NCBI GenBank assembly: GCA_021792975.1 | Contig: JAJYTR010000001.1 | Coordinates: forward strand, 62,001-126,000 | Direction: 5' to 3' | DNA: 64,000 nucleotides | Source: Pseudomonadota bacterium | GTDB taxonomy: Bacteria; Pseudomonadota; Gammaproteobacteria; Xanthomonadales; Rhodanobacteraceae | Shown here: piece by piece, positions 3,804-62,855 of the stretch | Position numbering within the stretch: the first letter of the stretch is position 1 | Layout of the letters: every line of letters starts with the position of its first letter | Made by a program: the position numbers and the translations under genes | Notes under the pieces: generated by a model | The model's input: only the letters and a program-made list of their open reading frames with translations | What the model was told of the DNA's origin: nothing | Database searches by the model: none

Positions 3804-5927
3804 ATGAGCCGCACGCTGGTCACCTGCGCCCTGCCCTACGCCAACGGCCCGCTGCACCTGGGTCATCTGCTGGGCTACATCCAGGCCGATATCTGGGTGC
3901 GCGCGCGGCGCATGCGCGGCGAGACCGTGCATTTCGTCTGCGCGGACGACGCACACGGCACGCCCATCATGCTGGCGGCGGAACAGGCGGGCCTGCCACC
4001 CGAGGCGTTCATCCGCGACATCCAGCGCGGCCACGAAACCGACTTTGCCGCCTTCGGCGTGGCCTTCGACCATTACCACTCCACGCACAGCGAGGAGAAC
4101 CGCGCGCTGGCCGGGCTGATCTACGCGCGCCTGCGCGAAGGCGGCCACATCGCCGCACGGGCGGTCCAGCAGTTCTACGACCCGGTCAAGGGCATGTTCC
4201 TGCCCGATCGCTACATCAGGGGCATCTGCCCGCATTGCGGTTCACCCGACCAGTACGGCGACAACTGCGAGGTCTGCGGCAAGGCCTATGCGCCCACCGA
4301 TCTGAAGCAACCGCGATCAGTGCTCTCCGGCGCCACGCCCGAACTGCGCGATTCGGAGCACTACTTCTTCAGGGTGGCCGACTTCGAAGCCGTGCTGCGC
4401 GACTGGATGGCCGGCGAAATGGCGCCCCCCGCGGTCAAGGCCAAACTGCGCGAGTGGCTGGACGGCGGCCTGCGCGACTGGGACATCTCGCGCGACGCAC
4501 CCTATTTCGGTTTTGCCATTCCCGATACGCCGGGCAAGTATTTCTACGTGTGGCTGGACGCGCCGATCGGTTACCTCGCCAGCTTCAAGGCGCTGTGCGA
4601 AAGCGCCGGTGGCGTGCGGCACGGCCTGACGCCGACCAGCTTCGACGAATATCTCGGCGCCGGCAGCGGCACCGAGATGCACCACTTCATCGGCAAGGAC
4701 ATCATCAACTTCCACGGCCTGTTCTGGCCGGCGATGCTGCACGGCGCGGGTTACCGCCTGCCGACGGCGCTGCATGTCAACGGTTACCTGACGGTGAACG
4801 GCGCCAAGATGTCGAAGTCGCGCGGCACCTTCATCCGGGCGCGCACCTATCTGGATGCGGGGCTGGCGCCGGAGTATCTGCGTTACTACTTCACCAGCAT
4901 GCTGGGCCCGGCGCCCACCGACGTCGATCTGGACCTGGGCGCCTTCGAGGAGCGCGTCAACTCGCACCTGGTCGGCAAGTGGGTGAACATCGCCAGTCGC
5001 ACGGCGGGGTTCGTGACCAAGTATTTCGACGGACGTCTGGCGGGCGAACTTGATCCGATCGAGCGGACGCTGTGGGGCGGCCTGGTTGCCGCGCTGCAGG
5101 CCTCCGTGCCGCTATTCGAGTCGGGCGAGTACGCCGAGCTTTGTCGCGCGTTCGTCGAGGCCGCCGACCGCGTCAACGGCTACATCGCCGGGAAGGCACC
5201 CTGGCAGATGGCCAGGGACGAGTCGCGCCGCGCGGAGCTGCACCAGGTCTGCACCTTCGCGCTGTCGGCGTTCCGCCTGCTGGCGGGCTGGCTGAAACCC
5301 GTCCTGCCGGCCACGGTCGAACGGGCCGAAGCATTTCTGGATGCGCCGATCAAGGATTTCGACGCCGCCGCGCGGCCCCTGCTCGGCCACCGCGTCAACG
5401 CCTTCACGCCGCTGCTCGGCCGCATCGATCGCAAGCAGATCGAGGCGATGGTCGCGGCGTCCACCGAATCCCTGCAGCCGGCAGCACCCGCCGCCGAACC
5501 GAAGGCACGACCGATGAACTCCCTTCCCGCGTCCGTACCTCCGGACTCCGGCTCTTCTACCCCGAGTCCCCAGTCCCCAGTCCCCAGTCCCGGCTCCTTC
5601 ATTTCCATCGACGACTTCGCCAGGCTGGACCTGCGCGTCGGCATCGTGCGCACCTGCGCGCTTGTCGAAGGCTCGGACAAGCTGCTGCGCCTCGAGCTGG
5701 ATGCCGGAGAGCTGGGCACGCGGCAGATCTTCTCCGGTATCCGCGCCGCCTACCCCGAACCGGCCAGGCTGGTGGGCCGCCGCGTGGTGTTCATCGCCAA
5801 CCTGGCGCCGCGCAGGATGCGTTTCGGCGTTTCGGAAGGAATGATCCTTTCCGCCGGCAGCGGCGGTGCCGATCTGTTCCTGCTCGATGCGGATCCGGGC
5901 GCGCAGGCGGGCATGCCGGTGCGCTGA
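3804..5927 (+). CDS. metG: Methionyl-tRNA synthetase
   Basis: 707 residues from the ATG at 3804. A class I synthetase charging tRNA-Met and initiator tRNA. Visible landmarks: PLHLGH (HIGH motif, residues 16-21), the zinc-knuckle cysteines in GICPHCGS and DNCEVCGK (about residues 142-162), KMSKS near residue 335, the anticodon-binding helical domain, and a C-terminal EMAP/tRNA-binding (dimerisation) domain from about residue 600 ([13 protein letters not shown]). Between these lies a Pro/Ser/Ala-rich linker of about 45 residues whose last part ([14 protein letters not shown]) is encoded by a four-copy tandem heptamer, listed separately. It is convergent with dinB with only four bases between stops. 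Confidence 0.97.
5565..5592 (+). repeat. Tandem heptamer repeat (AGTCCCC x4) inside the metG linker
   Basis: Four back-to-back 7-base units, AGTCCCC three times and AGTCCCG once, lie within coding sequence for the inter-domain linker of metG. Three units equal 21 bases, so only changes by multiples of three units preserve the frame. The same heptamer, in the opposite orientation and in an inverted-repeat setting, occurs at 61557-61632. Confidence 0.85.
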
Positions 5928-58234: not shown

Positions 58235-58452
58235 GAACGACCTCGATCGGATCAGAACCCAAGTGAACGTGAACGCCCCGCCCTGCGCGCGAACATAACT
58301 GCAATTCGCGGCAGCTTGAGGGGCTTAGGTCACAAATTGTTGACTTTTTCGAGCTTGCCGGCAAGACCCGGCGCACTCGGGATGGGCGGCCGGGACCGGT
58401 TCCCGCCCCGCCGGGCGGCCGGTTGACCGCGCTGCGGCGGCGCACCTATCCT

Positions 58453-58468
58453 TCAAACGTTCGTTTGA
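58453..58468 (+). promoter_or_regulatory. PsrA-type operator
   Basis: TCAAACGTTCGTTTGA is a perfect 16-base palindrome, 14 bases before the GTG of the TetR gene. Its core CAAAC-N4-GTTTG fits the PsrA box published for Pseudomonas (G/CAAAC, two to four bases, GTTTG/C). It probably mediates autorepression of the regulator and, by read-through, of the fad genes. Confidence 0.7.
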
Positions 58469-58482
58469 TACGGAGCACCGGC

Positions 58483-59103
58483 GTGAGCGCCTCGCAGTTT
58501 TCCACCAAGCAGCGCATCCTGGGTGCGGCCGAAACGCTGTTCGCGCAGCACGGTTTCGCCGGCGCGTCGCTGCGCCAGGTGACCAACGCCGCCAATGTCA
58601 ATCTGGCCGCGGTCAACTACCACTTCGGCTCCAAGGACAATCTGATCGAAGCGGTGTTCCGGCGCCGCCTGGACGCGCTCAACGCGCGCCGCCATGCGGC
58701 GTTGTCGCGGGTCGAGGCCAAGCCCGGGGCCAGCCTGGAGGATGCGCTGGATGCGTTCATCCGCCCGGCCCTGGAACTGGCGCTGGACCGCCACGGCGGC
58801 GCTGCCTTCATGCGCATGCTGGCGCGTGCCTACGCCGAACACGACGAGCGGCTGCGCACGTTCCTCTCCGACAACTACGGCCACGTGCTGCGCGAGTTCG
58901 CGGTGGCGTTCCACCGCATGCTGCCGCACCTGGCCAAGGAAGAGCTCTACTGGCGCCTGGATATCGTGGCCGGCGCGCTCACCTACACCATGGCCGATTT
59001 CGGCCTGATCAAACGCCGGGCCGGCACCAGCGAGAGCGCGCATCGCGAATATACCGTCGAGCATCTGGTGCGCTTCGCCGCCGCCGGCCTGCGCGCGCCC
59101 TGA
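58483..59103 (+). CDS. psrA: TetR family regulator, PsrA-like (fatty acid metabolism)
   Basis: 206 residues from the GTG at 58483, chosen because an upstream ATG (58423) would put the operator inside the gene. The N-terminal HTH (TKQRILGAAETLFAQHGFAG, then LRQVTNAANVNLAAVNYHFGSK) has the wording of PsrA; the ligand domain also resembles it (FMRMLARAYAEHDERLRTFL, YWRLDIVAGALTYTM). PsrA represses beta-oxidation genes and is released by long-chain fatty acyl ligands. Here it precedes a fadN/fadA pair and a matching operator. A hairpin at 59123-59145 lies before the fad genes. Confidence 0.85.
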   Translation: MSASQFSTKQRILGAAETLFAQHGFAGASLRQVTNAANVNLAAVNYHFGSKDNLIEAVFRRRLDALNARRHAALSRVEAKPGASLEDALDAFIRPALELALDRHGGAAFMRMLARAYAEHDERLRTFLSDNYGHVLREFAVAFHRMLPHLAKEELYWRLDIVAGALTYTMADFGLIKRRAGTSESAHREYTVEHLVRFAAAGLRAP

Positions 59104-59122
59104 TTCCACCCCACCCGGTACC

Positions 59123-59145
59123 GCCGCGCGAACGATGCGCGCGGC
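59123..59145 (+). terminator. Hairpin between the regulator and the fad genes
   Basis: Eight-pair GC stem (GCCGCGCG / CGCGCGGC) with a seven-base loop followed by CCCCCCTTT. Could be a weak terminator limiting read-through from the regulator gene, or an RNA stabiliser. Confidence 0.4.
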
Positions 59146-59177
59146 CCCCCTTTCGCAACGCGTCAAGGAGTCTCCCC

Positions 59178-61550
59178 ATGAACCCCACTCCCCTCCGCAT
59201 CCGCAAGGCCGCGGTGCTGGGCGCCGGCGTGATGGGCGCGCAGATCGCCGCACACCTCGCCAACGCCGGCATCGAAGTGGTGCTGTTCGACCTGGCCGCC
59301 AAGGACGGGCCGAAGAACGGCATCGCCGCGAAGGCCCTGCAGAATCTGGGCAAGCTGTCGCCGGCACCGCTGGCGGAGAAATCGCGCGCGGCCGGCATCG
59401 TGCCCGCCGACTACGACGAGCACCTCGGGCTGCTGGCCGATTGCGACCTGGTGATCGAGGCCATCGCCGAGCGCATGGACTGGAAACTCGATCTGTACCG
59501 GCGCATCGCCCCCGCCCTGCCCGCGCACGCCATTGTCGCCAGCAACACCTCGGGACTGTCCATCGGCACGCTGGCGCAGGCCCTGCCGGAAACCCTGCGG
59601 CCGCGTTACTGCGGCGTGCATTTCTTCAATCCGCCGCGCTACATGCACCTGGTCGAGCTGATCCCGCAGCCGGCCACCGATCCGGCCGTGCTCGACGCGC
59701 TGGAGGGGTTCCTGGTCACCGCGCTGGGCAAGGGCGTGGTGCGCGCCAAGGACACGCCCAACTTCATCGGCAACCGCATCGGCGTGTTCTCGATCCTGGC
59801 CACGATGCACCACACGCAGCAGTTCGCGCTGGGTTTCGACGTGGTGGACGCACTGACCGGTCCCGCCATCGGCCGCCCGAAGAGCGCCACCTACCGCACC
59901 GCCGACGTGGTCGGGCTGGACACCATGGCGCACGTCATCCGCACCATGGACGAGACACTGCCGCAAGACCCCTGGCACGGCTACTTCAAGTCGCCGGCCT
60001 GGCTGGACGCGCTGATCGCGCAGGGCGCGCTGGGACAGAAGTCCGGCGCCGGCTTCTACCGCAAGGCCGGCAAGGACATCCTCGTGCTGGACCTGGCCAG
60101 GCGCGACTACCGCCCTTCCGCGCAGAAGCCCTCCGAGGAAGTCGCCGCCATCCTGGCCCTCCGGAACCCCGCGGAGAAGTTCGCCCGACTGCGCGCCAGT
60201 GCGGACCCGCAGGCGCGGTTTCTGTGGGCCGTGTTCCGCGACCTGTTCCATTACGCCGCCCATCACCTGGCCGACATCGCGCAGACCGCGCGCGACGTCG
60301 ACTTCGCCATCCGCTGGGGCTACGGCTGGAAGCTGGGGCCGTTCGAGACCTGGCAGGCCGCCGGCTGGCAGCAGGTCGCGGCATGGATCAACGAGGACAT
60401 CGCCGCCGGCAAGACGATGTGCGCGGCGCCGCTGCCGGCATGGGTGCTGGATGGCCGCAGCGGCGTCCATGCCGCGGTGGGCTCCTACGCACCGCGCGCC
60501 GGCAAGCCGCTGCCGCGCTCCGCGCACCCGGTGTACCGTCGCCAGATCTTCCCCGACGCGCTGCTGGGCGAACGCTTCGACAACGGCACCACCCTGTGGG
60601 AGAACCCCGGCATGCGGCTGTGGACGCTGGGCGACGACCTCGGCATCGTCTCGTTCAAGACCAAGATGCACACGGTCAACGACGCCGTGCTGGACGGCCT
60701 GCAGGAATCCATCGGCCGCGCCGAGCGCGGGCTCAAGGCGCTGGTGATCTGGCAGGACGGCGAACCCTTTTCGGCCGGCGCCGATCTCAAGGGCGCGCTG
60801 GGCCTGCTGCAGGCCGGCAGAAGCGCCGGTCTCGAGGCCATGATCGCCAACTTCCAGGCCACCAGCATGCGCATCAAGTACGCGCTGGTGCCGGTGGTCG
60901 CGGCGGTGCGCGGGCTGGCGCTGGGCGGCGGCTGCGAGTTCCAGATGCACAGCGCGCGCACCGTGGCCGCGCTGGAGAGCTACATCGGCCTGGTCGAAGC
61001 CGGCGTCGGACTGCTGCCGGCTGGCGGCGGACTCAAGGAGATCGCCGTGCGCTGCGCGCAGCAGGCCGGCGATGGCGACCCATTCGATTTCATCAAGCGT
61101 TACTTCGAAACGGTGGCCATGGCCAAGGTCTCCGGCTCCGCGCTGGAAGCCAGGCGGATGGGCCTGCTGCGCGACAGCGACGTGGTCGTGTTCAACGCCT
61201 TCGAGTTGCTGCACGTGGCGCTGCGCACCGCTGATGCATTGGCCGAGTCCGGCTGGCATCCGCCGCTGCCGGCACGCGAAGTCGCAGTGGCGGGCGACAC
61301 CGGCACCGCCAGCCTGAAGATGCTGCTGGTCAACCTGCTCGAGGGAGGCTTCATCTCGCCGCACGATTCCGAGATTGCCTCGCGCATCGCCGATACCCTG
61401 TGCGGCGGCGGCATCGAGCGCGGCTCGCAGGTGGACGAGGACTGGCTGCTGCGCCTGGAGCGCAGGCACTTCATGGCGCTGGCGCAGATGGAGAAAACCC
61501 AGGCGCGCATCCAGCACACGCTGGCCACCGGCAAGCCGCTGCGCAACTGA
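59178..61550 (+). CDS. 3-hydroxyacyl-CoA dehydrogenase/enoyl-CoA hydratase (FadN-like)
   Basis: 790 residues. Bifunctional beta-oxidation enzyme with the dehydrogenase part first: NAD motif LGAGVMGAQIAAHLANAG, SNTSGLSI, catalytic His in GVHFFNPPRYMHLVELIP. A hydratase (crotonase) part lies in the C-terminal half: LALGGGCEFQMHSARTVAA and LVEAGVGLLPAGGGLKE, the oxyanion-hole and catalytic-Glu regions. This order is that of Bacillus FadN and its proteobacterial relatives, opposite to E. coli FadB. It forms a pair with the thiolase gene 108 bases downstream. Ribosome-binding site AAGGAG at 59166. Confidence 0.93.
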   Translation: MNPTPLRIRKAAVLGAGVMGAQIAAHLANAGIEVVLFDLAAKDGPKNGIAAKALQNLGKLSPAPLAEKSRAAGIVPADYDEHLGLLADCDLVIEAIAERMDWKLDLYRRIAPALPAHAIVASNTSGLSIGTLAQALPETLRPRYCGVHFFNPPRYMHLVELIPQPATDPAVLDALEGFLVTALGKGVVRAKDTPNFIGNRIGVFSILATMHHTQQFALGFDVVDALTGPAIGRPKSATYRTADVVGLDTMAHVIRTMDETLPQDPWHGYFKSPAWLDALIAQGALGQKSGAGFYRKAGKDILVLDLARRDYRPSAQKPSEEVAAILALRNPAEKFARLRASADPQARFLWAVFRDLFHYAAHHLADIAQTARDVDFAIRWGYGWKLGPFETWQAAGWQQVAAWINEDIAAGKTMCAAPLPAWVLDGRSGVHAAVGSYAPRAGKPLPRSAHPVYRRQIFPDALLGERFDNGTTLWENPGMRLWTLGDDLGIVSFKTKMHTVNDAVLDGLQESIGRAERGLKALVIWQDGEPFSAGADLKGALGLLQAGRSAGLEAMIANFQATSMRIKYALVPVVAAVRGLALGGGCEFQMHSARTVAALESYIGLVEAGVGLLPAGGGLKEIAVRCAQQAGDGDPFDFIKRYFETVAMAKVSGSALEARRMGLLRDSDVVVFNAFELLHVALRTADALAESGWHPPLPAREVAVAGDTGTASLKMLLVNLLEGGFISPHDSEIASRIADTLCGGGIERGSQVDEDWLLRLERRHFMALAQMEKTQARIQHTLATGKPLRN

Positions 61551-61556
61551 TGAAAC

Positions 61557-61632
61557 AGGGACCGGGGACCAGGGACTGGGGACCGGAAAAGCTCCAGCGA
61601 GGATGTCGTTCCGATCCCTGGCCCCAGTCCCC
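61557..61632. repeat. Inverted-repeat element with heptamer arms between fad genes
   Basis: Left arm: four tandem heptamers of (A/G)GGGAC(C/T) at 61557-61584. Right arm: degenerate inverted heptamers including AGTCCCC at 61626-61632. About 30 unrelated bases lie between. The unit equals the AGTCCCC heptamer inside metG (5565-5592), so both belong to one dispersed repeat family. It lies in the 108-base gap, without coding capacity. Confidence 0.7.
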
Positions 61633-61658
61633 CTCACAAAGAACCTGAGGATCCCGCA

Positions 61659-62855
61659 ATGACCCGTCAAATCCAGGACGCCTACATCGTTTCTGCCGTG
61701 CGTACGCCGGTAGGCAAGGCGCCGCGCGGAGTGTTCCGCAACACCCGCCCCGATGACCTGCTGGCGCACGTGCTGCGCGCGGTGCTGGCCGGGGCCCCGG
61801 GCGTGGACGTGCGGCGCATCGGCGATGTGGTGATCGGCTGCGCCATGCCCGAGGCCGAGCAAGGCATGAACGTGGCGCGCATCGGCCTGCTGCTGGCCGG
61901 CCTGCCCGATGCCCTCCCGGGCATGACCATCAACCGCTTCTGCTCCTCCGGCTCGCAGGCGGTGGCGATCGCCGCCGACCGCATCCGCGTCGGCGAGGCG
62001 GATCTGATGCTGGCCGGCGGCACCGAGAGCATGAGCATGGTGCCGATGATGGGCTTCAAGCCGGCGATCAACCCCGGCGTGTTCAAGGACGAGAACATCG
62101 CCATCGCCTACGGCATGGGCATCACCGCCGAGAACGTGGCCGGGCGCTGGAAGGTCAGCCGCGAGGACCAGGACGCTTTCGCGCTGCAGAGCCACCAGCG
62201 CGCTCTGGCGGCCATCGCCGCCGGACACTTCAAGGCCGAAATCGCGCCCTACGTGCTGGACGACCACTACCCCGACCTCGCCGGCGGCGGCATCCGGTCC
62301 GACACGCGCAGCATCGACACCGACGAAGGCCCGCGCCGCGACACCAGCCCAGAGGGGCTGGCCAGACTGCGCCCGGTGTTCCGCATGGGCGGCAGCGTCA
62401 CCGCCGGCAACAGCTCGCAGATGTCCGACGGCGCCGGCGCGGTGCTGCTGGCCAGCGAGCAGGCGATCAAGGAGTTCGGCCTCACCCCGCTGGCGCGCTA
62501 CGTCACCAGCGCGGTGGCCGGCGTGCCGCCGGAGATCATGGGCGTCGGCCCCAGGGAAGCGGTGCCGCGCGCGCTGCGCCAGGCCGGCTGGAAGCAGGAC
62601 GAGCTGGACTGGGTGGAACTCAACGAGGCCTTCGCCGCGCAGTCGCTGGCGGTGATCCGCGACCTCGGGCTCGACCCCGCCCGGGTCAACCCGCTGGGCG
62701 GCGCCATCGCGCTGGGCCACCCGCTGGGCGCCACCGGCGCCAAGCTCACCGCCACCGTGGTGCACGGCCTGCGCCGCACCGGCGGCAAGCGCGGCATGGT
62801 GACCATGTGCATCGGCACCGGCATGGGCTTCGCCATGCTGCTCGAAGCCGCGTAA
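61659..62855 (+). CDS. fadA: Acetyl-CoA C-acyltransferase (3-ketoacyl-CoA thiolase)
   Basis: 398 residues. Thiolytic cleavage of 3-ketoacyl-CoA, last step of beta-oxidation. Nucleophile Cys95 in NRFCSSGSQAV, His354 in ALGHPLGATGA and Cys384 in CIGTGMG are the three active-site elements. N-terminal VSAVRTPVGKAPRG and the GGTESMSMVPM loop fit the FadA family. Second gene of the fad pair; presumably controlled with it by the PsrA-like repressor. Confidence 0.95.
   Translation: MTRQIQDAYIVSAVRTPVGKAPRGVFRNTRPDDLLAHVLRAVLAGAPGVDVRRIGDVVIGCAMPEAEQGMNVARIGLLLAGLPDALPGMTINRFCSSGSQAVAIAADRIRVGEADLMLAGGTESMSMVPMMGFKPAINPGVFKDENIAIAYGMGITAENVAGRWKVSREDQDAFALQSHQRALAAIAAGHFKAEIAPYVLDDHYPDLAGGGIRSDTRSIDTDEGPRRDTSPEGLARLRPVFRMGGSVTAGNSSQMSDGAGAVLLASEQAIKEFGLTPLARYVTSAVAGVPPEIMGVGPREAVPRALRQAGWKQDELDWVELNEAFAAQSLAVIRDLGLDPARVNPLGGAIALGHPLGATGAKLTATVVHGLRRTGGKRGMVTMCIGTGMGFAMLLEAA

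Follow-up and report, generated by a model that had tools for sequence, protein, structure and literature searches.

A TetR-family repressor gene at the head of a fatty-acid oxidation operon raises the question of how far its control extends: to its own promoter only, or to other operons of the same pathway. The locus in question lies in a 64,000-nucleotide stretch of DNA (here called the window; contig JAJYTR010000001.1 of assembly GCA_021792975.1) from a Rhodanobacter-like member of the Lysobacterales. In it, a psrA-type gene is followed by genes for a FadN-type bifunctional enzyme and a FadA-type thiolase, and is preceded by an inverted repeat, or box, of the PsrA operator type. Largely by analogy with Smlt2053 of Stenotrophomonas maltophilia, the locus is interpreted with considerable confidence as an autorepressed psrA-fadN-fadA operon whose repressor would also act on several other beta-oxidation operons.

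Operator, regulator and enzymes of the psrA operon

The predicted operator, TCAAACGTTCGTTTGA, occupies positions 58453-58468 and is strand-neutral, with 7-base arms (TCAAACG and CGTTTGA) around a central TT and symmetry at 14 of its 16 positions. It had been described in a first-pass annotation as a perfect palindrome, which is incorrect: the box and its reverse complement, TCAAACGAACGTTTGA, differ at the two central bases. The same annotation equated the core with the PsrA box of pseudomonads, and here the sequence agrees, the core fitting the published consensus operator G/CAAAC(N2-4)GTTTG/C (PMC10304680), so that the promoter of psrA itself carries a PsrA operator as defined by that consensus. 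At up to 3 mismatches, TCAAACGTTCGTTTGA is found in a single place in the window, scored once per strand (2 matches, with 0.04 expected from shuffled sequences).

Consensus scanning placed a sigma-70-like promoter directly ahead of the box on the plus strand. The -35 hexamer TTGACC (58423-58428) and the -10 hexamer TATCCT (58447-58452) are separated by an 18-base spacer and match consensus at 9 of 12 positions, and the -10 ends at 58452, touching the box. A GGAG read off the sequence at 58472-58475 (plus strand) is the likely psrA ribosome-binding site, and 14 bases separate the end of the box from the GTG start at 58483. No second box (up to 3 mismatches) occurs in the 60 bases upstream of the first one in the window.

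The regulator gene (58483-59103, plus strand) encodes 206 amino acids with TetR_N and TetR_C_30 domains, as identified by profile search. Its resemblance to PsrA, noted by eye in the annotation, was borne out by both models and structures: the best NCBIfam model is NF053516, PsrA (173.7 bits, runner-up 54.7), the Bacillus FadR model scores 21.9 bits, and the best solved structure is 2fbq (127 bits, next 67), which we take to be P. aeruginosa PA3006/PsrA. A stretch of the DNA-binding domain, VNLAAVNYHFGSK, is identical in the regulator and 2fbq. The model score falls below the PsrA cut-off of 300, which says little because the 2fbq sequence itself reaches just 229.5 bits (a Colwellia relative scores 309.8); the cut-off seems to have been set around one branch. 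In a maximum-likelihood tree of 61 regulators the window protein groups with Lysobacterales, then with Wenzhouxiangella and others. Assignment as a PsrA-type regulator is supported by these comparisons, and the tree leaves strict orthology to PA3006 undecided. PsrA-like paralogues in the family (L325-L329) were considered as readers of the box and set aside, as they fall on a betaproteobacterial branch and lack a box at up to 1 mismatch.

The second gene (59178-61550, plus strand) encodes a 790-residue 3-hydroxyacyl-CoA dehydrogenase/enoyl-CoA hydratase with the dehydrogenase domains first (3HCDH_N, residues 10-193; 3HCDH, 196-295; ECH_1, 496-621). The best NCBIfam match is the Staphylococcus model "3-hydroxyacyl-CoA dehydrogenase/crotonase FadB" (596 bits, below its cut-off of 999). 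A classical, hydratase-first FadB was rejected, since the domain order is reversed and the FadB models, with cut-offs of 870 and 934, give scores of 194 and 156 bits. The motifs GGGCEF, GLVEAGVG and GVHFFNPP align with GGGCEC, GLPETKLG and GMHFFNPV of 6tnm, presumably the hydratase active-site glutamates and the dehydrogenase histidine; on this alignment FadN keeps the expected active-site residues. The third gene (61659-62855, plus strand) encodes an acetyl-CoA C-acyltransferase of 398 residues (NF006553, 696 bits, cut-off 567). All three genes are consecutive on the plus strand, confirming the earlier description of a regulator joined to a dehydrogenase-first, FadN-type enzyme and a thiolase. 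The only other 3-hydroxyacyl-CoA dehydrogenase gene seen in the source genome (2.28 Mb in 101 contigs, 76% complete) is FadJ-like and hydratase-first, on contig C23.

The gap between fadN and fadA holds a GGGACC-rich inverted repeat (61558-61631) that would form a strong hairpin; the region 61548-61660 folds at -48.3 kcal/mol (z -2.6), and 2 of 200 shuffled sequences did equally well. Related copies with 3 mismatches occur at 5565-5597, and the repeat looks like a dispersed one. The hairpin might reduce fadA expression.

A mechanism can be proposed for the operon, in which a PsrA dimer would bind the 7+7 box abutting the -10 hexamer. The box covers the likely transcription start, a position that would suit a repressor blocking RNA polymerase. 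PsrA would then leave the DNA in the presence of long-chain fatty acids or the corresponding CoA esters, allowing the bifunctional enzyme and thiolase to be made. Sequences, promoter geometry, conservation and the boxes before genes were computed here, and binding, ligand and repression are attributed by analogy with the orthologue Smlt2053.

Conservation of the operon and box

The closest named relatives of the source genome are Luteibacter, Dyella, Rhodanobacter, Dokdonella and Tahibacter (among the matches listed). Comparison was made with the best 80 of at least 572 related loci; the 42 closest of these (L245-L285 and L290) have regulators 59-94% identical to that of the window. In all 42, psrA is followed by fadN on the same strand, and fadA comes next in 40, the other two loci ending before that point. 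Absence of the palindrome upstream of orthologues in related genera had been named as grounds for abandoning the PsrA interpretation; it was looked for, and the box is present within 1 mismatch in 41 of the 42. The remaining locus (L254) retains CAAAC-N4-GTTTG with 3 mismatches to the longer pattern.

A family sample of 147 genomes, including the source genome, gave a similar picture. A near-full-length psrA orthologue (60-100% identity) occurs in 144; in G122 and G028 the gene is broken by a contig end, and G131 has a weak match only. G028 was rejected as an instance of a box lacking psrA, the contig end that breaks the gene lying directly behind the box. When the 42 closest loci were combined with 30 family loci, some genomes being in both sets, 68 distinct upstream regions were obtained, and 67 carry the box within 1 mismatch. 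Among these 67, TTGAC begins 29 or 30 bases ahead of the box in 61, TA...T immediately before the box is the majority pattern, and 15 have a second box (1-2 mismatches) 41 bases upstream. A distance of 41 bases is about four helical turns. In seven same-genus genomes, compared ungapped, the psrA box arms are 96% identical, versus 56% for the 40 bases upstream and 44% for the 40 downstream.

Boxes beyond psrA and their likely reader

The first-pass annotation described a self-contained, fatty-acid-responsive regulon, possibly reaching other genes with the same box, and proposed a genome scan for the core. The exact core CAAAC-N4-GTTTG occurs in one place in the source genome; as the sole search for a regulon it was set aside, and other sites were recovered by allowing 1-2 arm mismatches and considering neighbouring genes and conservation. 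With up to 2 mismatches to the 7+7 arm pattern TCAAACGNNCGTTTGA, 7 sites are found in the source genome versus 3 for the reversed pattern used as control. Six of the 7 sit 0-35 bases ahead of the first in-frame start codon: all three with 0-1 mismatch and three of four with 2 mismatches. The genes concerned are psrA (0 mismatches), a gene for a 151-residue lipoprotein followed by acyl-CoA dehydrogenase (ACAD1; 1), ETF-ubiquinone oxidoreductase (ETF-QO; 1), FadH (2), a second acyl-CoA dehydrogenase (ACAD2; 2) and phosphoenolpyruvate synthase (ppsA; 2). The name FadH is based on domain content and on top-scoring models whose equivalog cut-offs were not reached; the lipoprotein was recognized by eye at its N-terminus. 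The seventh site (C9:12992, 2 mismatches) lies within a reading frame and was rejected as a target. By eye, none of the three control sites directly precedes a beta-oxidation gene, and all lie within open frames of more than 150 codons. Sites with exactly 3 mismatches (22, of which 8 had their surroundings inspected) were dropped, as up to 3 mismatches gave 29 sites versus 38 for the reversed pattern. The suggestion that other genes carry the box is therefore borne out by sequence in the source genome and, as described below, in sister and family genomes. A fatty-acid-responsive switch is likewise probable, and "self-contained" proves too narrow, with boxes before operons on other contigs.

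Six same-genus genomes together hold 23 sites with 0-1 mismatch, and 22 of these are at psrA, lipoprotein-ACAD1, ETF-QO, FadH or ACAD2; the remaining one, G056:C2:46361 (1 mismatch), lies within a putative acetate kinase gene (by eye) and was discounted as a target. Boxes are present at all six targets in G025, G043 and G084, at four in G119, four in G108 and three in G056. Mean pairwise arm identity is 0.96 at psrA (7 genomes), 0.98 at lipoprotein-ACAD (7), 0.97 at ETF-QO (5), 0.91 at FadH (6), 0.95 at ACAD2 (6) and 1.00 at ppsA (4), versus 0.38-0.75 for the 40-base flanks on either side, compared ungapped; as the sites were chosen for having a box, arm identity is partly built in, and the informative features are the shared positions and the drop in identity from arms to flanks.

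Across the family, the strict core CAAACGNNCGTTTG occurs at 217 sites in the 147 genomes versus 73 for the reversed pattern, 26 of the 73 falling in three genomes. Strict sites are present in 127 genomes, and some of the rest, among them G139 and G055, carry a box with 1 mismatch at psrA. Neighbouring genes were inspected at 145 distinct strict sites, a non-random set drawn from the matches listed, in which genomes having at least two sites were deliberately included. Besides 63 sites at psrA, 47 are at genes of beta-oxidation or the glyoxylate pathway: lipoprotein-ACAD (18), FadH (8), malate synthase (AceB, 7), EtfB (5), ACAD2 (4), FadD (3), ETF-QO (1, at 228 bases) and another thiolase (1). 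Judged from these sites, the predicted regulon seems to have a beta-oxidation core, with other members differing between genera. Very probably the same repressor, through the same box, would hold down the lipoprotein-ACAD operon, ETF-QO, FadH and ACAD2; this wider regulon is a computed one, whose distant boxes would be bound in the cell.

Several observations weigh against so broad a role. In the six same-genus genomes, up to 2 mismatches yield 52 sites versus 59 for the reversed pattern, a raw count not above chance, and just 7 of the 29 sites with exactly 2 mismatches are at target genes. Twenty of the 147 family genomes have no strict site, and 35 of the 145 strict sites inspected have no neighbour of the kinds named. 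Among the 38 more distant of the 80 loci (39-50% identity), just 16 have a box within 1 mismatch and gene order is variable; nine, of betaproteobacterial type, carry the exact 16 letters of the window box. The 2fbq protein forms a long basal branch in the regulator tree, its joining point among PsrA-like proteins not being settled. At ppsA, the element TCAAACGGTTGTTTCA (C74:13958, locus L067, in the source genome; L217, L224 and L226) is identical in G000, G025, G043 and G084, and the G043 box is part of TGAAACAAC-N7-GTTGTTTCA, which resembles a Cra-type element; ppsA is doubtful as a sixth target, and a Cra-like regulator may be its true reader. Finally, RNA-seq of an S. maltophilia mutant confirmed changes in Smlt2052 and Smlt2051 only, five other changed genes being not validated and without a box (PMC10304680).

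That transcriptome, together with the raw counts in sister genomes, is what plain autoregulation would predict, with the box serving as psrA's own operator only and the other boxes being chance or relics. Such an explanation is nevertheless disfavoured, because the distant boxes are conserved: nearly all 0-1 mismatch sites in the sister genomes fall at five target operons, the arms are 91-100% identical while flanks drift (subject to the selection of sites noted above), and strict sites recur in the family at six kinds of gene other than psrA, from lipoprotein-ACAD to FadD. In addition, a passage of a 2026 review (PMC13104628) ascribes two further operons, smlt0264-0268 and smlt3600-3601, to SMLT2053; section 7 of PMC10304680 does not state regulation of either. 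Restriction of the repressor to its own operon is accordingly judged improbable.

Slightly less probable still is that the boxes, some or all, are read mainly by TfmR, a different TetR repressor acting on fatty-acid genes: in X. citri it acts on fadE, fadH and the XAC2014 promoter (PMC6637906), and fadH and acyl-CoA dehydrogenase are box genes here, with no TfmR recognition motif found in a term search of the two TfmR papers. A TetR_N scan of the source genome (76% complete) returned two TetR genes and one AraC-type cross-hit (by eye), and the TetR gene other than psrA is flanked by a TonB-type receptor and a short-chain dehydrogenase (by eye). Part of the layout described for TfmR, a TetR gene and an alpha/beta hydrolase-like gene (by eye) in divergent orientation, was seen in G025 (99% complete; L349, C39), and this 3.1-kb locus has no box within 4 mismatches and no acyl-CoA dehydrogenase was seen there. 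A PsrA-type repressor acting at its own operon and at several others remains the preferred reading.

Among the genes so grouped, the lipoprotein is distinctive. The 151-residue lipoprotein-like protein (L064:1040-1492, minus strand, contig C37 of the source genome) has no Pfam match, and in each of the 18 family loci checked its gene comes first in the acyl-CoA dehydrogenase operon that bears the box. Its predicted fold has a mean predicted local distance difference test score (pLDDT) of 90.9, and a Foldseek search gave 5 weak matches (E 1e-4 to 6e-4, template modelling score (TM) 0.4-0.56), to LEA14-like plant proteins, the TMEM106B luminal domain, an archaeal protein and ApaG. Tentatively, and with the balance somewhat against it, PsrA may be the main switch of the whole fatty-acid-burning electron path (the acyl-CoA dehydrogenases, ETF, ETF-QO, FadH and FadN-FadA) and the LEA14-like envelope lipoprotein a working partner in long-chain fatty-acid use.

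Other strict boxes were seen at genes of central metabolism. At seven loci (L101, L102, L127, L130, L163, L177 and L183) the box precedes malate synthase A by 131-143 bases and has a LysR-type gene of the opposite strand next to it, the gene pair at L101 having been checked by profile; the glyoxylate shunt may be tied to this switch as well. In genus g11, with genes named by eye, a strict box stands beside a glucose-6-phosphate dehydrogenase gene at five loci (L149, L150 and L164-L166) and upstream of a pyruvate dehydrogenase E2-like gene at two (L151 and L152).

Relation to known systems

In P. aeruginosa, PsrA regulates fadBA5, which is located elsewhere, and in Bacillus a FadN-FadA-FadE operon is under control of the TetR regulator FadR. 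The present operon differs from the first arrangement in that the regulator shares an operon with a FadN-type enzyme, and it resembles the second in placing a dehydrogenase-first enzyme and thiolase under a TetR repressor, although the regulator is not of FadR type (22 bits on the FadR model versus 174 for PsrA). With P. aeruginosa PsrA it shares VNLAAVNYHFGSK and the box consensus; psrA is a single gene in that organism (PMC10304680).

Closer counterparts are found in the xanthomonads. In S. maltophilia K279a, Smlt2053 heads Smlt2053-Smlt2052-Smlt2051, binds its own promoter in an electrophoretic mobility shift assay, represses the operon, and comes off the DNA in response to long-chain fatty acids and the diffusible signal factor DSF (PMC10304680). 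TetR-first gene order and operator consensus are the same as here, and the second inverted repeat of the Smlt2053 promoter resembles the second box found 41 bases upstream in part of the family, the window having no such box. Unlike the five other RNA-seq genes of S. maltophilia, further operons of this family do carry a box. In X. citri, XAC2014-XAC2013-XAC2012 combines a TetR gene with fadB- and fadA-type genes in one operon, and XAC2014 is described as 36% identical to PsrA and as having the same recognition sequence (PMC6637906, PMC10304680); layout and recognition sequence again agree. Repression of fadE and fadH in X. citri is the work of TfmR, which also binds in vitro to the promoter of XAC2014-fadB-fadA (PMC6637906), whereas in this family FadH and the acyl-CoA dehydrogenase operon carry the PsrA-type box.

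Passages of two comparative studies (PMC5343134, PMC3223726) describe predicted PsrA regulons with many targets in other Proteobacteria; the first lists PsrA for 76 genomes from 12 taxa, and the word Xanthomonadales is absent from its main text. Multi-operon reach of PsrA in this family was not found in the literature searched, which did not cover Kazakov 2009.

The operon, box and response to long-chain fatty acids are already known from the S. maltophilia orthologue, and the operon is not new. An operon characterized in one species is shown to be widespread in a neighbouring family, with fixed promoter-operator geometry. To this is added a short list of further predicted PsrA targets, against the sole mutant transcriptome found in the order, which confirmed autoregulation alone, and an uncharacterized lipoprotein tied to fatty-acid oxidation is pointed out.

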